Notes under the pieces: model-generated
Databases searched by the model: none
Told to the model about the DNA's origin: nothing
The model's input: only the letters and a program-made list of their open reading frames with translations
Origin: Spirochaetota bacterium
GTDB taxonomy: Bacteria; Spirochaetota; UBA4802; UBA5550
Direction: 5' to 3'
Assembly: GCA_017999915.1 (NCBI GenBank)
Contig: JAGNKX010000003.1
Location: forward strand, 248,001 to 312,000
DNA: 64,000 nt
Shown: in pieces, positions 5,749-55,292 of the stretch
Position numbering within the stretch: position 1 is the stretch's first letter
Layout of the letters: each line of letters starts with the position of its first letter
Translations under genes and position numbers: made by a program

Positions 5749-6150
5749 ATGAACATATATGATTTCGTACATAATGTTCACACCCAGCAATTCAAGTCGG
5801 GCGATGTGATCTTTTCGCAGGGCGAGCAGTGCAATGGCAGTATGTATTTCATATTCACCGGGGAGGTCGCCATCATAAAAGGCCTCGACAAGGCCCAGCG
5901 CGAAGTTCGCCGGATGCGAAGCGGGGAGTTTTTCGGAGAAATGGCCCTCATCGGCTCAGAGCCCCGGGCGGCCACGGTGAAGGTCACGTCCCATGAAGCC
6001 AAGCTGGGCATAATCGACGAGCCCATATTCTATAAGCTTGCCAAGAACAGCCCGGAATTTCTTTTTGCCCTTCTCAAGGCCGCTATCACGCGGATGGTCG
6101 AACTGGATAACGCGCTTGATGAAGCCCGGAGGAACGAGCCGCAGGCATGA
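5749..6150 (+). CDS. Cyclic-nucleotide-binding domain protein
   Basis: This is a 133-residue single-domain protein of the cyclic-nucleotide-binding (CAP effector) fold. The beta-roll starts near residue 12 (FKSGDVIFSQGE). The phosphate-binding cassette is GEFFGEMALIGSEPRAATV near residues 64-82, with the Glu and Arg that contact the cyclic phosphate. A C-terminal helix follows. There is no DNA-binding helix-turn-helix, so it is not a full CRP/FNR regulator. AGGAAG precedes the ATG. The next gene encodes a GHKL-HDOD protein 49 bases downstream, so the two probably form a cNMP-responsive pair, with the class III cyclases in this window as possible cNMP sources. Confidence 0.88.
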   Translation: MNIYDFVHNVHTQQFKSGDVIFSQGEQCNGSMYFIFTGEVAIIKGLDKAQREVRRMRSGEFFGEMALIGSEPRAATVKVTSHEAKLGIIDEPIFYKLAKNSPEFLFALLKAAITRMVELDNALDEARRNEPQA

Positions 6151-6199
6151 GACGGTTTGCGATCGCGTCATATCGTACATTTCACAGATAAGAGGTCAT

Positions 6200-7675
6200 A
6201 TGGGCGGTATCGATAAAAAAGCAATTAACGATCTCATCAGGAAGCGGCAGCCTTTTTCCCTTTCCTTCAAGTTCGCCGATCTGAATACGATCATGACCAT
6301 CGACGGTATCTACGCGAAGATTCTAACGGCCCATGACCAGCTTTATCTTCTCAACTCGGTCATCTCCATCATGAGGGAGGTGACGGCCAACGCCCAGAAG
6401 GCCAACGCCAAGAGGGTATATTTCATCGGCACCGGCCTCAATATCAAGGATCCCGGCGATTACAATAAAGGAATGGAATCATTTAAAAGCCAGATCATGC
6501 AGAAACCCGATGAAATGAGCGCCCTTCTCAATAAGAGCGACTTTACGGTCACTTTCAATTTCGGCATTTCCGACAGAGGCATCAGGATAAGCGTCAAAAA
6601 CAACGCCGCGTTATTGCCCCGGGAGCTTGAGCGGATCAATCTCCGGCTTGAGGCGGCGCGCAAGTATCAAAACCTGATGGAGGCTTTTAACGATATCGAG
6701 GACCCGACCGAGGGGGCCGGGCTTGGAATAGCCCTTGTCGTGGTTACGTTGAAAAATATAGGGATCGACCCGGCTCTCTTTAAAATAGAGAGCGTGGCGC
6801 AGTCGACCGCCGTAACCCTGGAAATTCCGAGAGAGATCAAGCCGGGGGGCACCGTATCGGTCGTCAAGGATCGGATCCTCAAGGACATCACCGACCTGCC
6901 GCCGTTCCCGGCCAACATAGTCAGGATCATGGGGCTGTGCGACGACCAGGATTCCTCCCTTGACGTCATCGCGGAGGGCATCCTGTCGGATCCCGCCCTC
7001 ACCACGAGCATTCTGAAATTGTCCAATTCCGCGGCCTTTGTCACGGCGAAGCGCAATGAAACCGTGAACGAAGCCGTCAAGATCCTGGGAATAAAGAACA
7101 TCCGGTCCCTGATAATGGCGAGCGGCGCCCGCCGCATACTGGAAGAGCGCTACTCGATGTACGAGGAGATATGGGACCACTGCACAAAGGTCGCCTGTTA
7201 CGCCAGGCTCATCGCCCAAAAATTCCACGGCCAGGGCGCCGTTGAGCACGCTTCCCTGGCGGGTCTCCTCCACGATCTCGGCAAGATCATCCTGTTATCC
7301 ACGGACCCGGCGACGGCCAAGAGGATCGCCGAAGAAACAAAAAACAGGGAGCTGATCACGGAAACATTCATGGAGGAAATAGCCATCGGCATCAGCCATT
7401 CCACCATCGGCGGACTGGTGGCTGAAAAGTGGAATTTCCCCGGCTACCTGGCCGAGGCGATACAATGCCACCACGACCCTCTGAAAGCCTCCCCGGCTAA
7501 CGAGGCGGTCGTAAATTCCGTATACCTGGCGAACATGTTCTGCGGCATTGAGACGAGAAAATACGCCTTCCATTATATATACGGAAGCGTTCTGGAAAAA
7601 TACCAGCTTTCCGATGAAAAAGCCTTCAAAGAATACCATGAATTTTTAAAGAAATCCTACAGCTCCTATCAATAA
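6200..7675 (+). CDS. GHKL ATPase-HDOD signalling protein
   Basis: The start at 6200 has AGAGG four bases upstream. Longer upstream starts overlap the preceding gene and lack such a site. The 491-residue product has two parts. Residues 1-215 are a GHKL-type ATPase region with NAQKANAK and EGAGLGIAL boxes and no HisKA. Residues about 225-425 form an HDOD domain beginning ITDLPPFPANIVRIM and containing GLLHDLGKI. HDOD domains are degenerate HD hydrolase folds used in signal transduction. The likely partner is the cNMP-binding protein just upstream. It is paralogous in its N-terminal half to the protein at 3203-4345. Confidence 0.82.
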   Translation: MGGIDKKAINDLIRKRQPFSLSFKFADLNTIMTIDGIYAKILTAHDQLYLLNSVISIMREVTANAQKANAKRVYFIGTGLNIKDPGDYNKGMESFKSQIMQKPDEMSALLNKSDFTVTFNFGISDRGIRISVKNNAALLPRELERINLRLEAARKYQNLMEAFNDIEDPTEGAGLGIALVVVTLKNIGIDPALFKIESVAQSTAVTLEIPREIKPGGTVSVVKDRILKDITDLPPFPANIVRIMGLCDDQDSSLDVIAEGILSDPALTTSILKLSNSAAFVTAKRNETVNEAVKILGIKNIRSLIMASGARRILEERYSMYEEIWDHCTKVACYARLIAQKFHGQGAVEHASLAGLLHDLGKIILLSTDPATAKRIAEETKNRELITETFMEEIAIGISHSTIGGLVAEKWNFPGYLAEAIQCHHDPLKASPANEAVVNSVYLANMFCGIETRKYAFHYIYGSVLEKYQLSDEKAFKEYHEFLKKSYSSYQ

Positions 7676-7735: not shown

Positions 7736-9007
7736 ATGGCGTTGGCAGCAAAAAAGAACCTTGAATTCGGCGGACCCGCGGGGAATGTCCTTATAATGAT
7801 AGGGCTTCCCGCATTGATCTATTATCTCTACTTTTGCGTCAGGTTCAACCATGGCGATGTCATTCCGGGGAGCGACATCGATTATCGCCCTTTTATTTCA
7901 TTCCTCGACAGTATCATTCCCACCTGGAAGGCCGCGCTTATTTTCGGCTCATGGCTGATATTCCAGGCGCTCCTCCAGGCATTCCTGCCGGGGAGGACAG
8001 TGCAGGGCGTGAAACTGGAAGACGGCAGCCGCCTTGCCTACAGGATGAACGGTCCGGCGTCCTTCATTATAACCATCGCAATCCTGGGAATCCTGGCCGC
8101 TACCGGCGTTGTATCCGCTGATATTGTCTATGATAATTTCGGCGCCCTGATAAGCGTGATCGTCGTATTCGTGTTTATTTTCAGCTTGTTCTTATTCCAC
8201 TATGGGAAAATGTCCGGGCAGGCGGGCAGGCCTTCCGGCAGCAGGATCCATGATTTCTTCATGGGGGTGTCCCTCAATCCGCGCATTCCGCCGGTAACCG
8301 GCTTTGACCTCAAGTTTTTCTGCGAGGCCAGGCCGGGCCTTATAGGTTGGCTCGCGGTGAGCGCATCCTTCATGGGCGTTCAGTTCACACGGAACGGCTT
8401 CGTCACCGAGGCCATGGCGCTGGTGGTGGCCTTTCAGTTCCTCTATATCGCCGATTATTTCCGGCACGAGGAGGCGATACTCACCACCACGGACATCGTC
8501 AATGACAGTTTCGGCTTCATGCTGTCCTTCGGCGACCTGGCCTGGGTGCCGCTGACCTATTCCCTGCAGGCCTTCTACCTCATTGAGCACACCCACGATC
8601 TGCCCGCCTGGGGGATCGCGCTGATGGTGATCCTGAACTGCGCCGGGTACTACCTCTTCCGAGCCGTGAACATCCAGAAGCACCGTTTCAGGACCGTGCC
8701 CGGGTACCGGATCTGGGGCAGGGAGCCGGAGTATATCCAGACGGGCCAGGGGAACAGGCTCCTCGTTTCCGGCTTCTGGGGATGGTCGCGGCACTTCAAT
8801 TACGTCGGCGACATCATGATGGCCCTGGCCTGGTGCCTGCCATGTCTGTTTGACTCCCCCTTGCCGTACTTCTATGTTATCTACTTCACGATCCTCCTGG
8901 TGCACCGCCAGCGAAGGGACGATACAAAGTGCGCGGCAAAGTACGGCAAGGATTGGGATGAATACCGGAAGCGGGTTCCCTGGCGCATACTGCCGGGGGT
9001 ATACTGA
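7736..9007 (+). CDS. ERG4/ERG24-family sterol reductase-like membrane protein
   Basis: The protein (423 residues, many hydrophobic helices) matches eukaryotic sterol C-14/C-24 reductases in their two diagnostic blocks. One is NPR...GFDLKFF...RPGL near residues 178-200. The other is the C-terminal LLVHRQRRDD..C..KYG..W..Y...VPWRILPG..Y. Family members use NADPH to reduce a sterol double bond in the membrane. The C-terminal block alone resembles isoprenylcysteine methyltransferases, but the first block favours the sterol reductase family. GAGAGA precedes the ATG. The next gene is an EXPERA-domain protein, another sterol-linked family, which strengthens the reading. No squalene epoxidase or oxidosqualene cyclase is in view, so the true substrate is open. 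Confidence 0.82.
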   Translation: MALAAKKNLEFGGPAGNVLIMIGLPALIYYLYFCVRFNHGDVIPGSDIDYRPFISFLDSIIPTWKAALIFGSWLIFQALLQAFLPGRTVQGVKLEDGSRLAYRMNGPASFIITIAILGILAATGVVSADIVYDNFGALISVIVVFVFIFSLFLFHYGKMSGQAGRPSGSRIHDFFMGVSLNPRIPPVTGFDLKFFCEARPGLIGWLAVSASFMGVQFTRNGFVTEAMALVVAFQFLYIADYFRHEEAILTTTDIVNDSFGFMLSFGDLAWVPLTYSLQAFYLIEHTHDLPAWGIALMVILNCAGYYLFRAVNIQKHRFRTVPGYRIWGREPEYIQTGQGNRLLVSGFWGWSRHFNYVGDIMMALAWCLPCLFDSPLPYFYVIYFTILLVHRQRRDDTKCAAKYGKDWDEYRKRVPWRILPGVY

Positions 9008-9009
9008 TT

Positions 9010-9123
9010 GCATAGGGCCGGGAGTTGCTTTCGCATACAGGGGACAGGATGTCCCCGCCCGCCATAGTACATGGATGTACTATTTTGGCGGGTAAGCGAA
9101 AGCGGCTCTCGGCCCTATCATGC
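9010..9123. repeat. Composite palindromic repeat with nested hairpins
   Basis: An outer imperfect inverted repeat (9010-9034 with 9096-9123) encloses two inner hairpins. One is ggggac/gtcccc at 9040-9056. The other is a long stem at 9058-9092 centred on tacatggatgta. The element begins immediately after the reductase stop codon and could act as a transcript end. A second element with the same centre lies at 45416-45571. No coding signal is seen. Confidence 0.75.
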
Positions 9124-9223
9124 ACTTACAATTGCCCATAACGAATTTACAACATAAAGGTGTAAAGATATATTACAAGGGGTAGATATAATAGTTCAAA
9201 CGTATCGTATAAAATGGCAGTAC

Positions 9224-9248
9224 GAAGGCGGGGTAAGCTGCCGCCTTC
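9224..9248 (+). terminator. GC hairpin with T-rich 3' side in the leader of the EXPERA gene
   Basis: Stem gaaggcgg (9224-9231) pairs exactly with ccgccttc (9241-9248) and is followed by tttaaat. It lies 36 bases before the ATG of the next gene and about 32 bases after a TATAAT at 9187-9192. It could be an attenuator, or a terminator of upstream transcription. The T-run is short. Confidence 0.45.
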
Positions 9249-9283
9249 TTTAAATACAAAATATACAAAACGGAGGATTTGCC

Positions 9284-9856
9284 ATGTCTGGTATCGATGT
9301 ACTTCCCCTGCGGGAACGCAAGGGGGACTGGATCTTCATTGTCTTTTTTTCCTTCTTCGTATTTTCATCCTTCGCCTCTGACCTGGTCAACGGCGTGATG
9401 ACCCCGTCGCCCCAGAGCGATTATTTCTGGGCCCGGGCCGTGTACAACCTCTACGCCGTCAACAATGATCCGCTCCTGATCGCCAACCCATCCTGGATGA
9501 GGGCCATGTGCTTTCTGTCGGCCTTCGTGTTCGGCCCCTTTTATGTGGTGCTGGTCTACTCGTTCATTAAGGGAAAGAACTGGGTCAGGCCCTTCGCCCT
9601 TGTGTACGCCGGGATGATCATTGAAAGCATGATCGTCATTCTCTTCGCGGAATTTGCCGGCGATGCGACCCTTTTCAGCCAGGTATGCCAGGGCGGGGTC
9701 AAGACGGCTGAGGAGCTGGCGAAGATCGGACTAAACCAGGACCTCAGGGTACAGGACCCCGTCAAGTTCCTGGCCTTCAATTTGCCTTACAAACTGGTCC
9801 CGTTGATGCTGGCGGTGCGGATGCGAAAGGAACATCCTTTCAGCCGTAAGTTCTGA
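9284..9856 (+). CDS. EXPERA-domain membrane protein (EBP/TMEM97-like)
   Basis: The 190-residue, four-helix protein follows the EXPERA pattern of sterol delta8-delta7 isomerase (EBP) and TMEM97. An Asp lies at the end of helix 1 (Asp33). The block NNDPLL has Asp62, followed by a Trp. Then come PFY...Y.FIKGKNWVRP..LVYAGM and a last helix NLPYKLVPLMLAVRM. The Glu that TMEM97 carries in helix 2 appears to be replaced (LSAFVFGPFY). EXPERA proteins bind or isomerise sterols in membranes. GGAGG lies eight bases before the ATG. The preceding gene is an ERG4/ERG24-like reductase on the same strand, although hairpins lie between them. Isomerase activity is inferred, not shown. Confidence 0.75.
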   Translation: MSGIDVLPLRERKGDWIFIVFFSFFVFSSFASDLVNGVMTPSPQSDYFWARAVYNLYAVNNDPLLIANPSWMRAMCFLSAFVFGPFYVVLVYSFIKGKNWVRPFALVYAGMIIESMIVILFAEFAGDATLFSQVCQGGVKTAEELAKIGLNQDLRVQDPVKFLAFNLPYKLVPLMLAVRMRKEHPFSRKF

Positions 9857-9956: not shown

Positions 9957-10119
9957 TTATTTTCCCGGGAAAAGGATTCTGTCGCATACGCATGCAATTA
10001 TGAATGAAATAAAAAAACAAGATTAATGGCTGTTTCTCCCAAATCATTGTTGATGATTTAATCCGGCATCGCTACAATGACTCACCGGCTTTTCATTCTA
10101 CTACTAAGAAGTGATGATC

Positions 10120-12036
10120 ATGGCAAAAAAGAAGAAGACTACCAGAGAGAAAGAAGCGAAAAAGCCTTTGCTTAAGGGAAGGTTCAGGTTCACCATAGGA
10201 TTCAAGATGATCACCATCATTTCGCTGATCATCGCCACCGCGCTCTTCGGCATATCCTACCTGGCCACCTATTTCTTCAGGCAGGATTACGAGCTCCGCA
10301 TCAAGGAGAACAGCCATGAGATCGCGCGAACCATAGCCCTCAAGGTGCGGTCCGATTTTACCGCCATAGTCAGGCAGGCCGATTACCTGGCTTCAGTCCT
10401 GGAGGAGAGGGGGAGCGGGGACCATGAAAAGGCGACCCTCAAGGAGCATACTTTCGGCGAAGACAACCGCATTGTCTTCGTCGCCCTGGTGTCGAGGAAC
10501 GGCGATGTCTTTTCGACGGATATCTACGCGTCCCACAAGAAATTCCTGGAGCAGAACAAGCTCACGGAAAACGATTTCTTCAATGCCATAAAGAACGATA
10601 AGAGCTCGCTGGTGAATGTCTTCAACGGCGACACCATCGTCAACAACGCTTCCCTGAACTTCAAGATTCCCATCATCAGCATCGGGGTGCCGTACCGCTA
10701 CAGCGCTCCCTCCAAGGCTTCGACGATACTGGTGGTATACGTGCCGATGACGCTGTTTCTTGAATCGGTCAAATCGACGGGGATCACCAAGAGCATGATC
10801 GTCAACGGGTTCGGCGACGTTCTGGCCCACCATGACAGCTCCCTCGTCAGGGCCAAGACCAATTTCGTCAGTCTCCCCATCGTCGACGGCATGCTCAAGA
10901 GCAAGGCGGACAACGGTCTCCTGCGGTATGCCGACGGCAGCGGCAGCTATTTCCTGGGGGCCTTCTACAAGACCGGCTTCGGCGATACCGGCATCATCTC
11001 CACGGCCCCGGAGGACAAGGCTTTCGAGGCTCTCTACCGAATACTATGGAGGAATGTCCTCATAACGCTCATAGTGCTCAACGGCGGCATCCTGATCGTG
11101 TATCTCTTCTCCAAGACCCTAACGCGGCCCATCAAGCGGCTGGTGACGGCCACCCAGGAGATAGAGAAGGGCAATTTCCACGTTGACATTAAACGCACCG
11201 GAAGCGACGAGGTGGGCGACCTGACCGATTCCTTCGTCAAGATGGGCGTCGGGCTGGGCGAGCGCGAGCGCATCAAGGACGCCTTCGGCAAGTTCGTCAA
11301 CAAGGAGCTCGCGGACAAGGTCCTGCGCGGCGAGCTCAAGCTCGGCGGCGAGAAGATCGTGGCGCCGGTGTTCTTTTCGGACATTCGGTCCTTCACGGCC
11401 ATCTCTGAGAAAATGGATCCGGAAGAGGTCGTCGAGTTCCTCAATGAATACATGACGAAAATGGTGGACTGCGTCAACCGGACCGGCGGCGTCGTGGACA
11501 AGTTCATCGGCGACGCCATCATGGCGATCTGGGGAACGCCCGTTTCATCGGGTAACGACACGGAAAACGCCGTCAATTGCGCCCTCATGATGCGCCAGAC
11601 CCTCATCGAACACAATATTGGACGCGGTGCCGCGAAAAAACCGATAATCCAGATCGGCTGCGGCATCAACACGGGACCGGTCATCGCGGGGCAGATAGGC
11701 TCTCACGAGCGGATGGAGTACACCGTCATCGGGGACACGGTAAACGTCGCTTCCCGCATCGAGACCCTCAACAAGCCCTTCGGCACCGACATCCTTATCT
11801 CCCAGGACTCGCACAAGCTGGTCGAGGGCATCTTCAACACCGTGTCAATGCAGAAGATCATGATCAAGGGAAAAAGCAAGCCCCAGCAAATATACGCGGT
11901 CCTTGGCAGAAAGGACGATCCGGCCGCGCCGAAGACGCTCCCGGCCCTGCGCAAACTGCTGGGCATCAAGGCACCGTCCATGAAAGAATTCGACCCGAAC
12001 CAGAAAGAAGAGAAATATGAAATTATTCAAGACTGA
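10120..12036 (+). CDS. Membrane class III adenylate/guanylate cyclase with periplasmic sensor and HAMP
   Basis: The ATG at 10120 is preferred: AAGAAG lies about eight bases upstream and the protein then begins MAKKKK. The 638-residue protein has a helix near residues 30-55, a periplasmic Cache-like sensor to about residue 305, a second helix near 307-330, and a HAMP linker. A class III cyclase domain follows (about 410-600). The two metal-binding Asp are Asp421 in FFSDIR and Asp465 in KFIGDAIM; Lys461 is the base-recognition Lys, and EYTVIGDTVNVASRIE completes the site. These favour ATP as substrate. Its 3' end overlaps the next gene by 20 bases, so output is tied to the FecR-type protein downstream. 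Confidence 0.92.
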   Translation: MAKKKKTTREKEAKKPLLKGRFRFTIGFKMITIISLIIATALFGISYLATYFFRQDYELRIKENSHEIARTIALKVRSDFTAIVRQADYLASVLEERGSGDHEKATLKEHTFGEDNRIVFVALVSRNGDVFSTDIYASHKKFLEQNKLTENDFFNAIKNDKSSLVNVFNGDTIVNNASLNFKIPIISIGVPYRYSAPSKASTILVVYVPMTLFLESVKSTGITKSMIVNGFGDVLAHHDSSLVRAKTNFVSLPIVDGMLKSKADNGLLRYADGSGSYFLGAFYKTGFGDTGIISTAPEDKAFEALYRILWRNVLITLIVLNGGILIVYLFSKTLTRPIKRLVTATQEIEKGNFHVDIKRTGSDEVGDLTDSFVKMGVGLGERERIKDAFGKFVNKELADKVLRGELKLGGEKIVAPVFFSDIRSFTAISEKMDPEEVVEFLNEYMTKMVDCVNRTGGVVDKFIGDAIMAIWGTPVSSGNDTENAVNCALMMRQTLIEHNIGRGAAKKPIIQIGCGINTGPVIAGQIGSHERMEYTVIGDTVNVASRIETLNKPFGTDILISQDSHKLVEGIFNTVSMQKIMIKGKSKPQQIYAVLGRKDDPAAPKTLPALRKLLGIKAPSMKEFDPNQKEEKYEIIQD

Positions 12037-35540: not shown

Positions 35541-36761
35541 TCAGGCGTCGGCCTTCCATTTAAGGTAATTGGGGACACCGCTGTGGTGAATATAGCAGGC
35601 GGGATCCTCGCCGAGGGGATCGCCCGTCGCGGCGTAGGCCTTGCCGCGGCAGCCGCCGCAGATCTCCCTGTTCTCGCACTCCCCGCATTTTCCCTTGAGG
35701 CGGTCCCTGTCGGAAAGGCTTGTGAAGATCTCGCTTTTTGACCAGATATCGCTGATTCTCATCTCGCGCACGTTGCCGCCGCTTACCGGGACAAAGGGGC
35801 AGGGCCACACGTCGCCGTTCGGCTTGATATAGATGAGTCCCCATCCAGCGGCGCAGCCGTGGAAGACGGGCCCCCGGGCCTTCGGCTTACTGTCGCTGTT
35901 GTCGCGCCCGAGGAGGTGCGGCCAGTACTGGGGCGCGGCCACCGGCTCGATGATGGTCATGGAATTCTTCTGGAGCTTCTTGACCGTCTTCACAAGGCTC
36001 AGGCTGTCCTCCGGCGAAAGGACCGAATCAAGGATCGCGCTGCCCCGGCCCATGGGCACCAGCTGGTAGCAGAGCATGATGTCGGCGCGGATGTCGTGGC
36101 AGAAACGGATGACGTCCGGCAGGGTGGCGATGTTTTCCTGCATGGCGGTGAAGTTTATCTGGATGACCATGCCGGCGGACCTGCACGCCTCGATGCCCCG
36201 GAGGGCCCGCTCGAAGGCTGTCGTGTTCTGCCTGATATGGTTATGGATCGCGCTGTCGGTGGAGTCGAAGCTCACCGCAATCCCCTTGACCCCCAGCTTT
36301 TTCAGCTCCCGCGCCCGGGCGCCGTCTATGAGGGTGCCGTTGGTCGCTATGACGTTGACGAGTCCGAGCTTCCTGCTGCGGGCCAGGAGCCGGTCGATAT
36401 CTGGACGCACCAGGGGCTCGCCCCCGGAGTAGGCCAGCATCCTGAAGCGCTTCATCGACGCGAGCTGTGCCAGCATGGCGTATCCTTCCTCCGTGGAAAG
36501 CTCGTCCGGACCCGCCACGGATGACGTGGCGTGGCAGTGGCGGCAGCGAAGGTTGCACGCCTCGGTCACCTCCCACACGGCGTGGTATCCGAAGCCGATG
36601 CACCCCATGCCGACGGCGCCGGCCGATACCGGTATCGATTTGAAGGAAGACGTTCCAAGCCACTGGAGGAAACTGCTCCATCCGGTCGTCCTGCGCAGCA
36701 GCAGGGCGGCACGAAATTGCTTCAATAGGTTGCCGGCGGCCAGGTAGTGTTTCAGCGCCAT
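35541..36761 (-). CDS. Radical SAM/SPASM-domain protein
   Basis: The protein (406 residues) has the radical SAM motif CNLRCRHC (Cys69, Cys73, Cys76). AYSGGEPLVRPD and ATNGTLIDG are the usual SAM-binding strands. A C-terminal SPASM region holds Cys in HGCAAGWG, WPCPFVP and CGECENREICGGCRG, able to bind auxiliary [4Fe-4S] clusters. Such enzymes modify peptides, cofactors or haem precursors. Its start overlaps the end of the UbiA-type gene by ten bases, so both are made from one message and probably serve one pathway, perhaps a prenylated or quinone-like cofactor. No precursor peptide gene was seen nearby. Confidence 0.88.
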   Translation of the reverse strand: MALKHYLAAGNLLKQFRAALLLRRTTGWSSFLQWLGTSSFKSIPVSAGAVGMGCIGFGYHAVWEVTEACNLRCRHCHATSSVAGPDELSTEEGYAMLAQLASMKRFRMLAYSGGEPLVRPDIDRLLARSRKLGLVNVIATNGTLIDGARARELKKLGVKGIAVSFDSTDSAIHNHIRQNTTAFERALRGIEACRSAGMVIQINFTAMQENIATLPDVIRFCHDIRADIMLCYQLVPMGRGSAILDSVLSPEDSLSLVKTVKKLQKNSMTIIEPVAAPQYWPHLLGRDNSDSKPKARGPVFHGCAAGWGLIYIKPNGDVWPCPFVPVSGGNVREMRISDIWSKSEIFTSLSDRDRLKGKCGECENREICGGCRGKAYAATGDPLGEDPACYIHHSGVPNYLKWKADA

Positions 36762-37696
36762 ATCGCGAGCACTCCCACGGTGATGGATGAGAGATGGTTC
36801 AGCACGATGGTGAGGCCGCAGATCGGCTCCAGCGTTTCGAGGCTCCGCCAGCGTCGGCGCACGGCCACATTGACCGCCAGGACCAGGCCGAGAATGGCGG
36901 CGGGAGCCGCCGCGAGAAGGTGCGCCGGGGACCAGCTCCTGAACAGGGCCCAGAGGACGATGATTGAAATAGATGTCAGGACCGCAATGACGGAATAGAG
37001 GACCGCGCCTGCGTTCTTTCCGATGCGGACCAGGAGGTTGAGCTTGCCGGAATCGCGGTCCGCCTCGTAATCAGGAAATTCATTGATAAGGATGACATTG
37101 AAAATGGTCAGGGCCACGGGTATGCTGAAGTAATAGCTGTACGGCGGTATGGAGCCGGAGGCGCAGAGGTGCCCGGTGACCAGGGTGAGCCAGCCGTAGC
37201 AAAAGGCGATGAAGAGCTCGCCGACGCCGCGCATCACCAGGCGTACCGGCGGCATGGAATAGAGCACCGCGCTGCCGATGCCGAAGGCCCCCAGGGCGAG
37301 CAGCAACAGGCTGCCGTGAATTGCGTATATGGCCAGGCCCATTAGGGCGGCGGATGCGAAGAGCGATATGGCCAGGAACATAACCGATCGTTCGGAGAGG
37401 GTCCCGCTGGCCACCATCAGGGTACCGCCGGAGAATTTCGTCCGCCCGTACAGGGCCGTTTTGGAATCCTCCTGCTGGTCATAGATTTCACCGATAAGAT
37501 AGCAGCCGATGCAGATAAACAGAACGGCCATGATTCCGAGCAGGGCCGAAAGCCATGAAACAGGACGGCCATGGGCATAGGCCAGGTACACGCCGACCCC
37601 GAAGGGGACAACGGCGACCGTGGTGAAGGGAAGCCTCATGACGTTGGCCCAGTTCTTGACTGTTGCAAATCGTTTATCGTTTATTGCCTGTTGCAT
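36752..37696 (-). CDS. UbiA-family prenyltransferase
   Basis: The ATG at 37696 has AAGGA nine bases upstream; a TTG further out is less likely. The 314-residue protein has about eight to nine membrane helices. Its two acidic motifs are YDQQEDSK near residue 78 and FPDYEADRDSGK near residue 205, which bind Mg-diphosphate of a prenyl donor. The overall type is nearest MenA/UbiA enzymes that prenylate aromatic rings. The first motif departs from the usual NDxxDxxxD, so the acceptor is uncertain. It is coupled to the radical SAM gene downstream. Confidence 0.88.
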   Translation of the reverse strand: MQQAINDKRFATVKNWANVMRLPFTTVAVVPFGVGVYLAYAHGRPVSWLSALLGIMAVLFICIGCYLIGEIYDQQEDSKTALYGRTKFSGGTLMVASGTLSERSVMFLAISLFASAALMGLAIYAIHGSLLLLALGAFGIGSAVLYSMPPVRLVMRGVGELFIAFCYGWLTLVTGHLCASGSIPPYSYYFSIPVALTIFNVILINEFPDYEADRDSGKLNLLVRIGKNAGAVLYSVIAVLTSISIIVLWALFRSWSPAHLLAAAPAAILGLVLAVNVAVRRRWRSLETLEPICGLTIVLNHLSSITVGVLAIWR

Positions 37697-38145
37697 TTGG
37701 ATTTTCCTTATCTGGAAATATTTTGCCAAAATTGGCGACTTTGCCGGTTAATGCAATTACATTTTTCATGATCCTGGTTATTATCATTAACTGGGACGAT
37801 GTCATGGACCTCGGCAGGCCCTTTGCATCGGGAACGGCGCTGAAGAACCGGTATTGCCGGATTTTTTATAAAATAATTGATTTACTTTTTTATGCAATTG
37901 AGTTACTTTAATCATATGCACGGTGATACCGTATTTATGCTTGGAATGAATATTATCGCTGCCGTAGCACTTTCCTTCATTTATGGCGAGGGGATCCGCC
38001 TCGATCGATGCTTTAAATGCGTCAATGCCGCTTTTTCTTTTTCTCGGCCGCCTTATAATGCACAATCTTCATGGTAACTGTCTGGATTTTATTACTGTAT
38101 TAGGTGATACATAGTTTTTATCCATATCTTCGTTAGCAAGGATAT
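37697..38145. other. Intergenic region of about 450 bases, no gene supported
   Basis: It separates the divergent UbiA and hybrid-kinase genes. The middle (about 37860-37920) is AT-rich, as expected for promoters. Two overlapping short reading frames exist but lack ribosome-binding sites and have unconvincing composition. No hairpin with T-run or repeat was found. Confidence 0.35.
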
Positions 38146-45415: not shown

Positions 45416-45571
45416 TAGCAGTTTGCTGAAAAACAGCAAACTGCTAAGCGATACATGGATGTATCGCCTTTTTTCGAGGCGTTAGCCGAGAAAAATGTGA
45501 GGTTTTACGAATTCACTTCGTAAAACCGACCCTGAAAAACTCCAAGGAAGGAGTTTTTCGGGAAACTGTTA
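45416..45571. repeat. Composite palindromic repeat with four hairpins
   Basis: Outer ends tagcagttt and aaactgtta are imperfect inverted repeats. Inside lie four hairpins in a row. agcagtttgctg pairs with its complement (45417-45445). gcgatacat pairs with atgtatcgc. ggttttacga pairs with tcgtaaaacc. A stem near 45529-45562 contains gaaaaactcc and ggagtttttc. The second hairpin shares its tacatggatgta centre with the element at 9010-9123. The element lies between the CHAT gene and the FecR gene. Confidence 0.75.
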
Positions 45572-51840: not shown

Positions 51841-52191
51841 ATGAAAAAACGAATATCGGCGATAGCGCTGTTCCTTGTGCTGTTTGCGTCCGGGACCATC
51901 CTCGGCCAGACCGCCGACTGCCGCAAAAAGTGCCAGGACCGGAAGACCCAGTGCCTCAACCAGTGCATGGTCATGGCCGCCGATAATACCGGCTGCGCCG
52001 AGCGGTGCGAGACGGAAAGCGCCCGGTGTCTTGGAGCCTGCAAGGAAGTCAAGGCCGATACGGCCGAAGGCGTCGACGATGACGATGCCGAATACGAAGA
52101 TACCGAGGATGACGACGGTGACGACGATTTCGACAAGGAAGATGATCTGGACAATGATGAAGACTTTAAAGACATGGAAGATGATATCTGA
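51841..52191 (+). CDS. Small secreted protein with Cys-rich N-half and acidic C-half
   Basis: The 116-residue protein has a signal peptide (to about residue 23, TILGQ). A helical region follows with CX3C pairs: CRKKC, CLNQC, CAERC and CLGAC. Such spacing suits a two-disulfide helical hairpin or metal binding. The last 45 residues are almost entirely Asp and Glu. This tail could bind divalent cations or a basic partner. Its stop codon overlaps the ATG of the MMPL fusion gene (TGATG), so the two are tightly coupled. Confidence 0.72.
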   Translation: MKKRISAIALFLVLFASGTILGQTADCRKKCQDRKTQCLNQCMVMAADNTGCAERCETESARCLGACKEVKADTAEGVDDDDAEYEDTEDDDGDDDFDKEDDLDNDEDFKDMEDDI

Positions 52192-55100
52192 TGAGCAGTA
52201 TGAAAGGAATGATACGTAAGCATATCAGGCTGCCCTATATCATCCTGATAGTCATCGCGGCTGCGGCCATGTCCTACCTGGGCAAATCGCGTCTTGCCGT
52301 CGATATGGACATCACCAAATCGCTGCCGGTCAATGACCGGGTCATCGCCGACGCCGAGTACGTCATGACGCACCACCCGGTCAAGGACCGGATCGTCATC
52401 GACCTGGGCTGCGCCAGGGCCGATACTGACTCGCTCGTCGCCGGGGCCGCCCTGATCGAGGGCAGATTCGCGGAGAGCGGCCTCTTCCGGAGCGTCGGCC
52501 TCGATGAATACCAGACCATTTTTCCCGAGCTCATATCGTACATCATGGACAACCTGCCGGTCTTGTTCACCGCGGAAGAGCTTGACCGAAAGGTGAGACC
52601 CCTCCTGGCGCCGGACAGGGTGAAGGAGACCTTTGCCGATAACTATTCCCAGCTCCTCAACCTGGAAGGGATCGGCCAGGGGAACATGATGGCGTCGGAC
52701 CCCCTGGGCCTGAAAAACCTGGTGCTGGCGCGGATGGCCCACCTGGCGCCGTCGCGGAACGTCCAGATCGTGCAGGGCCGTCTCCTTTCCGCCGACGGCA
52801 GGCATGTCCTCATAACCGCGGAGCCCAGGGGATCCGCCACCGATACCGCCGTTGCGCGGAAGATCGATTCACTGATCCGGGCCTGCGCGGCCGACCTGGA
52901 TAAAAAATACAAGCCCAGGGGCATTGCCCTCACGGTAACGCCGGTGGGCGCTTTCAGGGCTGCCCTCGATAACGAGGACACGGCCAGGAGGGACACGGAG
53001 AAGGCCGTCCTGTTCGCGACGATCGGGATAATCATACTCCTCCTGGTGGGATTCCCCCGGCCCTTCATGGGAGTGCTGGCCCTGGTGCCGGCGGTCCTGG
53101 GCACCATCGCCGCCGCCTTCGTGTTCTCCCTCTTTTCAAGGGAGATCTCGATCCTCGCCATCGGCTTCGGCGGCACCATCATATCCTTCACCGTTGATTA
53201 CGGCATCGCCTACCTTCTGTTCCTCGACCGTCCCCATGAGACGCGGGGCATGGAGGCGACCAGGGAGGTCTGGGGGCTCGGGCTCCTGTCGATGCTTACC
53301 ACCGCGATAAGCTTCGCTTTTCTTTTTATAAGCGGCTTTTCCGCCCTGGCGCAGATAGGATTTTTCACGTCCCTGGGGGTCGTGTTCACCTATATCTTCG
53401 TGCATACGCTGTTCCCGGTGGTCTTTCCGGTCATGCCCCCGGCCCGCCGAAAGGGCCTTGTGCCCCTACAGAGGTTCGTCGATCTTCTCATGGGATCGGG
53501 GCCCCTCTTCAAGGTCTATGGGGCCGCGGCCTTCTGCGCGTTCATGCTCCTCTTCGCGAGGCCCGATTTCAAGGTGGATCTCGCGTCCATGAACACGGTG
53601 AGCAGGAGCACCCTCAAGGCCGAGGCGCTGGTGACGAAGACCTGGGGCAACGTTCTCTCCAATCTCTATCTCATGACCGAGGGGAGAAGCGTCGATGATC
53701 TCCAGCGCCTGGGCGACCGCGCGGCCGGGGAGCTCGATAAGGATATGGCCTCCGGCGTCCTGTCCGCCGCCTTCGTGCCGTCGATGATTTTCCCAGGAAA
53801 AGACCGCATGAAGGAAAACCTCGCCGCCTGGAGGGCCTTCTGGACGCCGGCCCGCGTGGCGTCGCTGAAGCGAGCCGTGAAAGACGCGTCCAGGGAAACC
53901 GGATTCGCTCCCGATGCCTTCGATACATTTTTCAAAACCGTGGGCCGCAGGGATTTCGAGCCCCGTCCCATACCGGAAAAATATCTTTCCGTGCTGGGAA
54001 TTCATCCCATGAAGGAAAGCACGGGGTGGGCGCAGTTTTCCGTGCTGAAGCCCGGTCCCTCGTACCGGGCCGACCGTTTTTACGAACGGGTCTCCGCGGG
54101 CGGAAATACCAGGCTCTTTGACCCGTCCTATTTTGCCGACCGGCTCGGCGGGATTATCCTGTCGAGCTTCATAAAAATGGCCCTCATCGTTGGCGCCATA
54201 ACTGCGGCGGTGGCGCTCCTGTATCTCCTGGACCTCAAGCTGACCGCCATATCCCTGGCGCCGACCCTGTTTTCGCTCATATGCACCCTCGGAACCATGA
54301 AGCTCCTGGGCCAGCAGCCGGGCATCCCCACGATCATCGTCACGGTCATCGTCATAGGCATGGGCACGGATTACGCCCTGTACCTGGTGCGGGCCCACCA
54401 GCGCTACATGGATGAGGCGCACCCGTCTGTGGGATTGATACGCCTGACGGTGGCCCTTTCAGCCGCGTCGACCATGATCGGCTTCGGCGTCCTCAGCGTT
54501 GCGGAGCACGCCCTCCTGAGAAACGCGGGAATCACGCTGCTCCTCGGTATAGGATATTCCTTCGCGGGCACGGTCCTGATCGTCCCGCCGCTGCTGAAAA
54601 GGGTCCTGGTCCCCGGAGAGCTTCCGGCCACGCCCTTTGAGGCCGCCTCGAAGGAGCACGCCGCGCGGGTCCAGTACCGTTACCGGGGCATGGAGCCATA
54701 TCCGAGGCTCTTCGCCCGTTTCAAGATGAGGTTCGATCCGATGTTCGGCGAGCTCCACCGGATGGCGGGATCGCCTGAAACGATCGTGGATATAGGCACC
54801 GGCTACGGCGTTCCGGCAATATGGCTCCTGGAGCTTTTCCCCGGCTCCCGACTCTATGGCATCGAGCCGGACGTGAAGAGGGCCCGGGCGGCCTCCTGGG
54901 CCATCGGCGGCCGCGGTTCTGTTACGGTCGGAAAGGCCCCGGACATACCGGATTTCCCGGGGAAAGCCGACACGGTGACGGCCATCGACATGATCCACTA
55001 TCTCGATGATCACGACCTGGGCCTTCTCCTGGACCGCCTCCGTGTGCGAATGTTGCCGAAGGGTACCCTTATAATCCGGGGGACCGTGCCGTCACGGAAG

Positions 55101-55292
55101 CGCGCCCCTCTCAGGATGATAGAGATGGCATGGATCAGGGTCAGGGGACTCCCGATGCACTATCGTTCCGAAGAGGATATCGTACGCATTATGAAAGGCC
55201 ATGGGTTCGCGGTCACCGTCGGCGAATCGTCATTGAAGAGCCGCGAGGAAAAATGGTTCCTGGGGACCATGAAGAAGGGCAGGAAAAGGTAA
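52191..55292 (+). CDS. MMPL/RND transporter fused to a SAM methyltransferase
   Basis: The 1033-residue protein joins two parts. Residues 1-820 form an MMPL-type RND transporter: one helix, a periplasmic domain (about 30-255), a helix bundle (about 265-415), a helix, a second periplasmic domain (about 455-650) and a second bundle (about 655-805). The bundles carry sterol-sensing-like text such as FGGTIISFTVDYGIAYLLF and VIVIGMGTDYALYLV. After a linker, residues about 845-1030 look like a class I methyltransferase: IVDIGTGYGVPAIWLLE (motif I), LYGIEPD and TVTAIDMIHYLDD. Such a fusion could modify a lipid as it is exported. It overlaps both neighbouring genes by a few bases. Confidence 0.88.
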   Translation: MSSMKGMIRKHIRLPYIILIVIAAAAMSYLGKSRLAVDMDITKSLPVNDRVIADAEYVMTHHPVKDRIVIDLGCARADTDSLVAGAALIEGRFAESGLFRSVGLDEYQTIFPELISYIMDNLPVLFTAEELDRKVRPLLAPDRVKETFADNYSQLLNLEGIGQGNMMASDPLGLKNLVLARMAHLAPSRNVQIVQGRLLSADGRHVLITAEPRGSATDTAVARKIDSLIRACAADLDKKYKPRGIALTVTPVGAFRAALDNEDTARRDTEKAVLFATIGIIILLLVGFPRPFMGVLALVPAVLGTIAAAFVFSLFSREISILAIGFGGTIISFTVDYGIAYLLFLDRPHETRGMEATREVWGLGLLSMLTTAISFAFLFISGFSALAQIGFFTSLGVVFTYIFVHTLFPVVFPVMPPARRKGLVPLQRFVDLLMGSGPLFKVYGAAAFCAFMLLFARPDFKVDLASMNTVSRSTLKAEALVTKTWGNVLSNLYLMTEGRSVDDLQRLGDRAAGELDKDMASGVLSAAFVPSMIFPGKDRMKENLAAWRAFWTPARVASLKRAVKDASRETGFAPDAFDTFFKTVGRRDFEPRPIPEKYLSVLGIHPMKESTGWAQFSVLKPGPSYRADRFYERVSAGGNTRLFDPSYFADRLGGIILSSFIKMALIVGAITAAVALLYLLDLKLTAISLAPTLFSLICTLGTMKLLGQQPGIPTIIVTVIVIGMGTDYALYLVRAHQRYMDEAHPSVGLIRLTVALSAASTMIGFGVLSVAEHALLRNAGITLLLGIGYSFAGTVLIVPPLLKRVLVPGELPATPFEAASKEHAARVQYRYRGMEPYPRLFARFKMRFDPMFGELHRMAGSPETIVDIGTGYGVPAIWLLELFPGSRLYGIEPDVKRARAASWAIGGRGSVTVGKAPDIPDFPGKADTVTAIDMIHYLDDHDLGLLLDRLRVRMLPKGTLIIRGTVPSRKRAPLRMIEMAWIRVRGLPMHYRSEEDIVRIMKGHGFAVTVGESSLKSREEKWFLGTMKKGRKR

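Follow-up and report, generated by a model that had tools for sequence, protein, structure and literature searches.

A gene for a sterol C-14 reductase and a gene for a relative of TMEM97 and EBP stand side by side in a spirochaete in which profile searches found no sterol synthesis, an arrangement that suggests the re-working of foreign sterols. On balance we favour the view that the two genes form a small remodelling module for sterols or sterol intermediates from other organisms, in which isomerisation is the most likely role of the EXPERA protein. Two aspects appear to be new, the presence of the pair in a sterol non-producer and an exchange, across phyla, of the gene that accompanies the reductase gene; neither was found in a limited search of the open-access literature.

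The window, a stretch of 64,000 nucleotides, comes from a Spirochaetota assembly of 5.46 Mb that is 99.2% complete. The two adjacent, same-strand reading frames described in an earlier sequence-only reading were recovered at exactly the same coordinates, and the locus is organised as follows:

6038..7675, plus strand, HDOD/HD-domain protein upstream of the pair; synteny conserved, no sterol link known
7736..9007, plus strand, ERG4/ERG24-type (sterol C-14) reductase of 423 aa, assigned from PF01222, the match to MaSR1, mapped residues and dN/dS
9012..9118, palindromic element between the two genes, with 27-nt arms that are 85% complementary
9284..9856, plus strand, EXPERA-domain membrane protein of 190 aa, TMEM97/sigma-2-like, with D33, D62, N166 and Y169; assigned from PF05241, a structural model and dN/dS
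10111..12036, plus strand, Cache-HAMP-adenylate/guanylate cyclase downstream of the pair; synteny conserved, no sterol link known

The gap that separates the two genes and holds the palindrome spans 276 bases in the window and about 82 bases in a sister species of the same genus (G097), where synteny with the window extends over the pair and the genes around it. The palindrome has one exact and one similar place in the window's genome (G000) and is not an abundant repeat. Hairpin-rich palindromes at 9012-9118 and 45440-45475 of the window have TACATGGATGTA in common, and a similar sequence occurs at G000:C6:39831. Elsewhere in the window we noticed by eye a UbiA-like prenyltransferase (36752-37729) and a large membrane protein of RND/MMPL-like appearance (52191-55292), the latter encoded downstream of a gene that resembles an acyltransferase.

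The reductase and its EXPERA neighbour

The first protein is unambiguously a member of the ERG4/ERG24 family. It matches the PF01222 profile over its full length (positions 3-432 of 432) with 435 bits (E=3e-130), far above the gathering cut-off of 27 bits, and the alternative identities considered for it, DUF1295 and ICMT-type methyltransferase, were dropped with 20.8 and 17 bits, respectively. A solved bacterial counterpart is MaSR1 of Methylotuvimicrobium alcaliphilum (PDB 4quv; E=2.8e-143), to which the window protein is 52% identical over the aligned length, and the only solved structures that match it are C-14 reductases. Alignment placed Y237 and D359 at the predicted catalytic residues Tyr241 and Asp363 of MaSR1 (PMC12489058), and N355 and R391 at its NADPH residues Asn359 and Arg395 (PMC4951196). 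The protein falls within the C-14 reductase clade and its delta-14 specificity is predicted. Unlike the spirochaete, M. alcaliphilum produces sterols, and in the Methylococcales that we examined the MaSR1-type gene adjoins ERG2 and not EXPERA. A second PF01222 match in the window's genome (C2:284047, 20 bits, below the cut-off) was set aside; it resembles the methyltransferase-like end common to many membrane proteins.

The second gene had been read as coding for an EXPERA protein with conserved Asp33 and Asp62, and this reading stands. The protein matches PF05241 (EBP/EXPERA) with 63 bits (E=4e-17) and, by profile, the sigma-2 receptor TMEM97 (E=9e-17); both family matches of the pair are far beyond chance. 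An AlphaFold2 model built with 27 bacterial relatives (pLDDT 85.1, pTM 0.80) predicted the four-helix EXPERA fold, with Z scores of 15.2 against TMEM97 (PDB 7m93, 7mfi), 13.9 against the sterol delta-8,delta-7 isomerase EBP (PDB 6oht, 8w0r) and 9.4 against the next unrelated chain. TMEM97 is therefore the closest solved relative by both sequence and fold, and one of its structures carries bound cholesterol. The window protein differs from TMEM97 in that it is bacterial, has a shorter C-terminus, contains an insert modelled with low confidence (about residues 125-155) and is encoded next to a sterol reductase gene.

Individual residues refine this picture. Acids at positions 80 and 108 of EBP, the latter corresponding to D56 of TMEM97, mark the EXPERA superfamily (PMC4263179). 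D33 and D62 of the window protein occupy these positions in the sequence alignment (EBP D108 one column off, TMEM97 D56 and the D56-P57 position exact); among 37 aligned bacterial EXPERA proteins the Asp33 column holds Asp or Glu in 35 and the Asp62 column holds Asp in 35. N166 and Y169, which are also conserved, align with Asn193 and Trp196 of EBP, so that an aromatic residue is retained at the latter position, and EBP Thr125 aligns with Ser79. Structure prediction and residue alignment, both of which had been suggested as checks, hence recovered the fold and did not reveal a loss of all ligand residues. The catalytic triad proposed for EBP, His76-Glu80-Glu122 (PMC6549186), is however incomplete in the window protein. 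Glu122 aligns with Cys76, and His76 falls on Ser29, a position outside the aligned fragment that was placed by counting from Glu80, four residues before D33. Judged by its residues, the protein is a TMEM97-like member of the EXPERA family and no EBP ortholog. The proposal of an EBP-like partner therefore survives as to family and fold, but the label of EBP isomerase is overstated, because the protein is nearer to TMEM97/sigma-2 and lacks the equivalents of His76 and Glu122.

A firm isomerase call is weakened by this resemblance, by the two missing residues and by a TMEM97 knock-out study in which EBP-step activity was unsupported (PMC13382799). The same study reported that loss of TMEM97 in human cells leads to a build-up of FF-MAS, the C-14-reductase substrate, and that TMEM97 did not bind TM7SF2. 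Instead of being an isomerase, the EXPERA protein could be a partner of the reductase that binds, senses or hands over sterols, a role that TMEM97 seems to have in animals. We regard this as somewhat unlikely. The cholesterol-bound sigma-2 receptor, the absent EBP residues and the FF-MAS phenotype speak for it; the conservation of the two superfamily acids and of N166 and Y169, together with the failure to find TMEM97-TM7SF2 binding, speaks against it, as does the gene context described below.

Distribution in Spirochaetota and the origin of the substrate

Among 392 Spirochaetota genomes, 8 hold EXPERA and 3 hold a full-length ERG24 (those of the window, of G097 and of G102, a spirochaete of the same family), and all three of the latter also hold EXPERA. 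A second ERG24-like copy in G102 (253 bits) and a copy in G350 (138 bits) were not counted as C-14 reductases; both are divergent and replace Asp359 with Glu, and the G350 copy in addition replaces Tyr237 with Phe. A distribution this patchy could be left by horizontal transfer or by the loss of a sterol pathway, with the pair as a functionless remnant, but we consider this highly improbable. Between the window and G097 the dN/dS ratio is about 0.14 in ERG24 and about 0.09 in EXPERA, which places both genes under strong purifying selection; the catalytic residues are intact and the synteny has been kept.

In the genome of the window, a full-length ERG24 and an EXPERA gene each occur once. Profile searches of this genome gave no match for squalene/phytoene synthase, squalene epoxidase, hopene or oxidosqualene cyclase, or P450 (CYP51); ERG2/sigma-1 (PF04622) was likewise missing from it and from G097 but present in G102. 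A scan of the genome_contigs collection with the window EXPERA as sole query gave no match. Within the limits of profile searches, de novo synthesis of sterols or hopanoids is ruled out, the home-made hopanoid because the cyclase is missing. The suggestion that the pair might act on a home-made sterol or hopanoid-like lipid consequently fell, the genome-wide search proposed along with it having returned neither squalene epoxidase nor either cyclase. Since squalene synthase, epoxidase, cyclase and P450 were not detected in a genome that is 99% complete, any sterol would come from outside. A scavenged substrate is the sterol reading that is left once a home-made one is excluded; we infer both the scavenging and the sterol nature of the substrate.

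There is precedent for such an arrangement. Coxiella burnetii has 'orphan' eukaryote-like sterol reductases (CBU1206/Stmp1 and CBU1158) without the remaining pathway, and activity in yeast was shown for one (PMC8787468). They are described as delta-24 and delta-7 reductase homologs of an intracellular pathogen, with no EXPERA partner reported, and in these respects they differ from the pair described here. Homologs of both EBP and ERG24 have already been noted in sterol-making myxobacteria (PMC10152446), but there the pathways are complete and the window's genome has none. In our trees the spirochaete ERG24 clade was sister to Myxococcota enzymes, several of them from genomes that combine squalene synthase and squalene epoxidase with oxidosqualene cyclase and P450; the fine placement of long-branched rows is not trusted in either tree.

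The sister species encodes a 666-aa OSC-type cyclase with a TDCTAE motif (G097 L165:10206-12203), whose neighbours are a U32-family protein and a DXS/prenyl-synthase/DXR/IspF/IspE cluster, and profile searches found neither squalene synthase nor P450 in that genome. The product of such a cyclase, or another polycyclic isoprenoid, might be what the pair acts on in place of a scavenged sterol. The location of this cyclase in an isoprenoid gene cluster would fit, but the window's own genome lacks such a cyclase and the relationship of its ERG24 to enzymes from genomes with sterol-synthesis clusters argues the other way; we think this improbable.

Gene partners of ERG24 in other bacteria

A search for ERG24 across 84,980 species genomes recovered 36 loci. 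In 11 bacterial genomes from four phyla a homolog of ERG2 and the sigma-1 receptor lies directly upstream of ERG24, mostly with a gap of about 20 bases; these comprise 8 Methylococcales, the spirochaete G102, one Myxococcales and one Acidobacteriota. In the genus of the window it is EXPERA that stands beside ERG24, on the downstream side. A third arrangement was found in an Elusimicrobiota genome (nzgw214, L166:10126-17461), where a fusion of squalene epoxidase and oxidosqualene cyclase (1,096 aa) is followed by an EBP-type EXPERA gene and then by ERG24, with almost no gaps between genes and a P450 nearby. The best match of this EXPERA protein is human EBP (E=2.5e-8), so that it, unlike the window protein, is of the EBP type; judged by its genes, the locus is a compact bacterial sterol cluster. 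We know of no earlier link between Elusimicrobiota and sterols.

Adjacency of EXPERA and ERG24 was seen only in three genomes, two of one genus and one of Elusimicrobiota; most Myxococcales carry the two genes apart. Genomes with a full-length ERG24 held ERG2, EXPERA or both in 32 of 37 cases (ERG2 in 16, EXPERA in 22, both in 6), a count that has no background rate and hence no P-value.

The same sterol isomerisation step is carried out by ERG2 in fungi and by EBP in animals. The isomerase partner of ERG24 appears to have been swapped between unrelated folds in bacteria, as it has between fungi and animals, and for this reason the swap is good guilt-by-association evidence, though no proof of catalysis, that EXPERA works on the product or substrate of the reductase. 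It also strengthens the earlier proposal that the two proteins take consecutive sterol steps. That EXPERA fills a slot held elsewhere by ERG2, a true isomerase family, weighs further against a purely non-catalytic partner.

Other gene neighbourhoods were also observed. A second EXPERA subfamily with an ITYIVDxEQ motif (L006-L010, L108-L125) often directly adjoins a short-chain dehydrogenase gene in Spirochaetota and Myxococcota, and three Myxococcales EXPERA genes (L131, L133, L134) adjoin a WS/DGAT acyltransferase or P450. Related ERG24 or EXPERA genes next to short-chain dehydrogenases could hint that the pair begins steroid catabolism instead of remodelling. This is quite unlikely, given that short-chain dehydrogenases are very common and that no catabolic cluster adjoins the pair at the window's locus.

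A possible route for foreign sterols

Under the remodelling hypothesis that we favour, a sterol or sterol intermediate would be obtained from other organisms, and ERG24, as an NADPH-dependent multi-pass membrane reductase, would saturate a ring double bond of this imported molecule. The EXPERA protein would bind the same class of lipid in its membrane cavity and most likely shift the remaining ring double bond, in an isomerisation of the C-8/C-7 type, or else present it. In other bacteria this job would fall to ERG2, a protein of unrelated fold that is encoded beside ERG24.

A broader and more tentative proposal, which we consider possible, is that ERG2/sigma-1 and EXPERA/sigma-2 proteins are interchangeable operon partners of ERG24, much like the split between fungi and animals, and that a spirochaete free of sterol synthesis kept the sigma-2 version for use on foreign sterols. 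If true, this version would provide a bacterial model in which to study TMEM97, a drug-binding protein whose native function is debated. A TMEM97-like gene next to the gene for a C-14 reductase, in a place that the sigma-1-like ERG2 fills in other bacteria, would offer an argument from genetics as well as a bacterial system simple enough for tests of what the family does. The pair would also add to Spirochaetota the remodelling of sterols without their synthesis, earlier known from intracellular pathogens.
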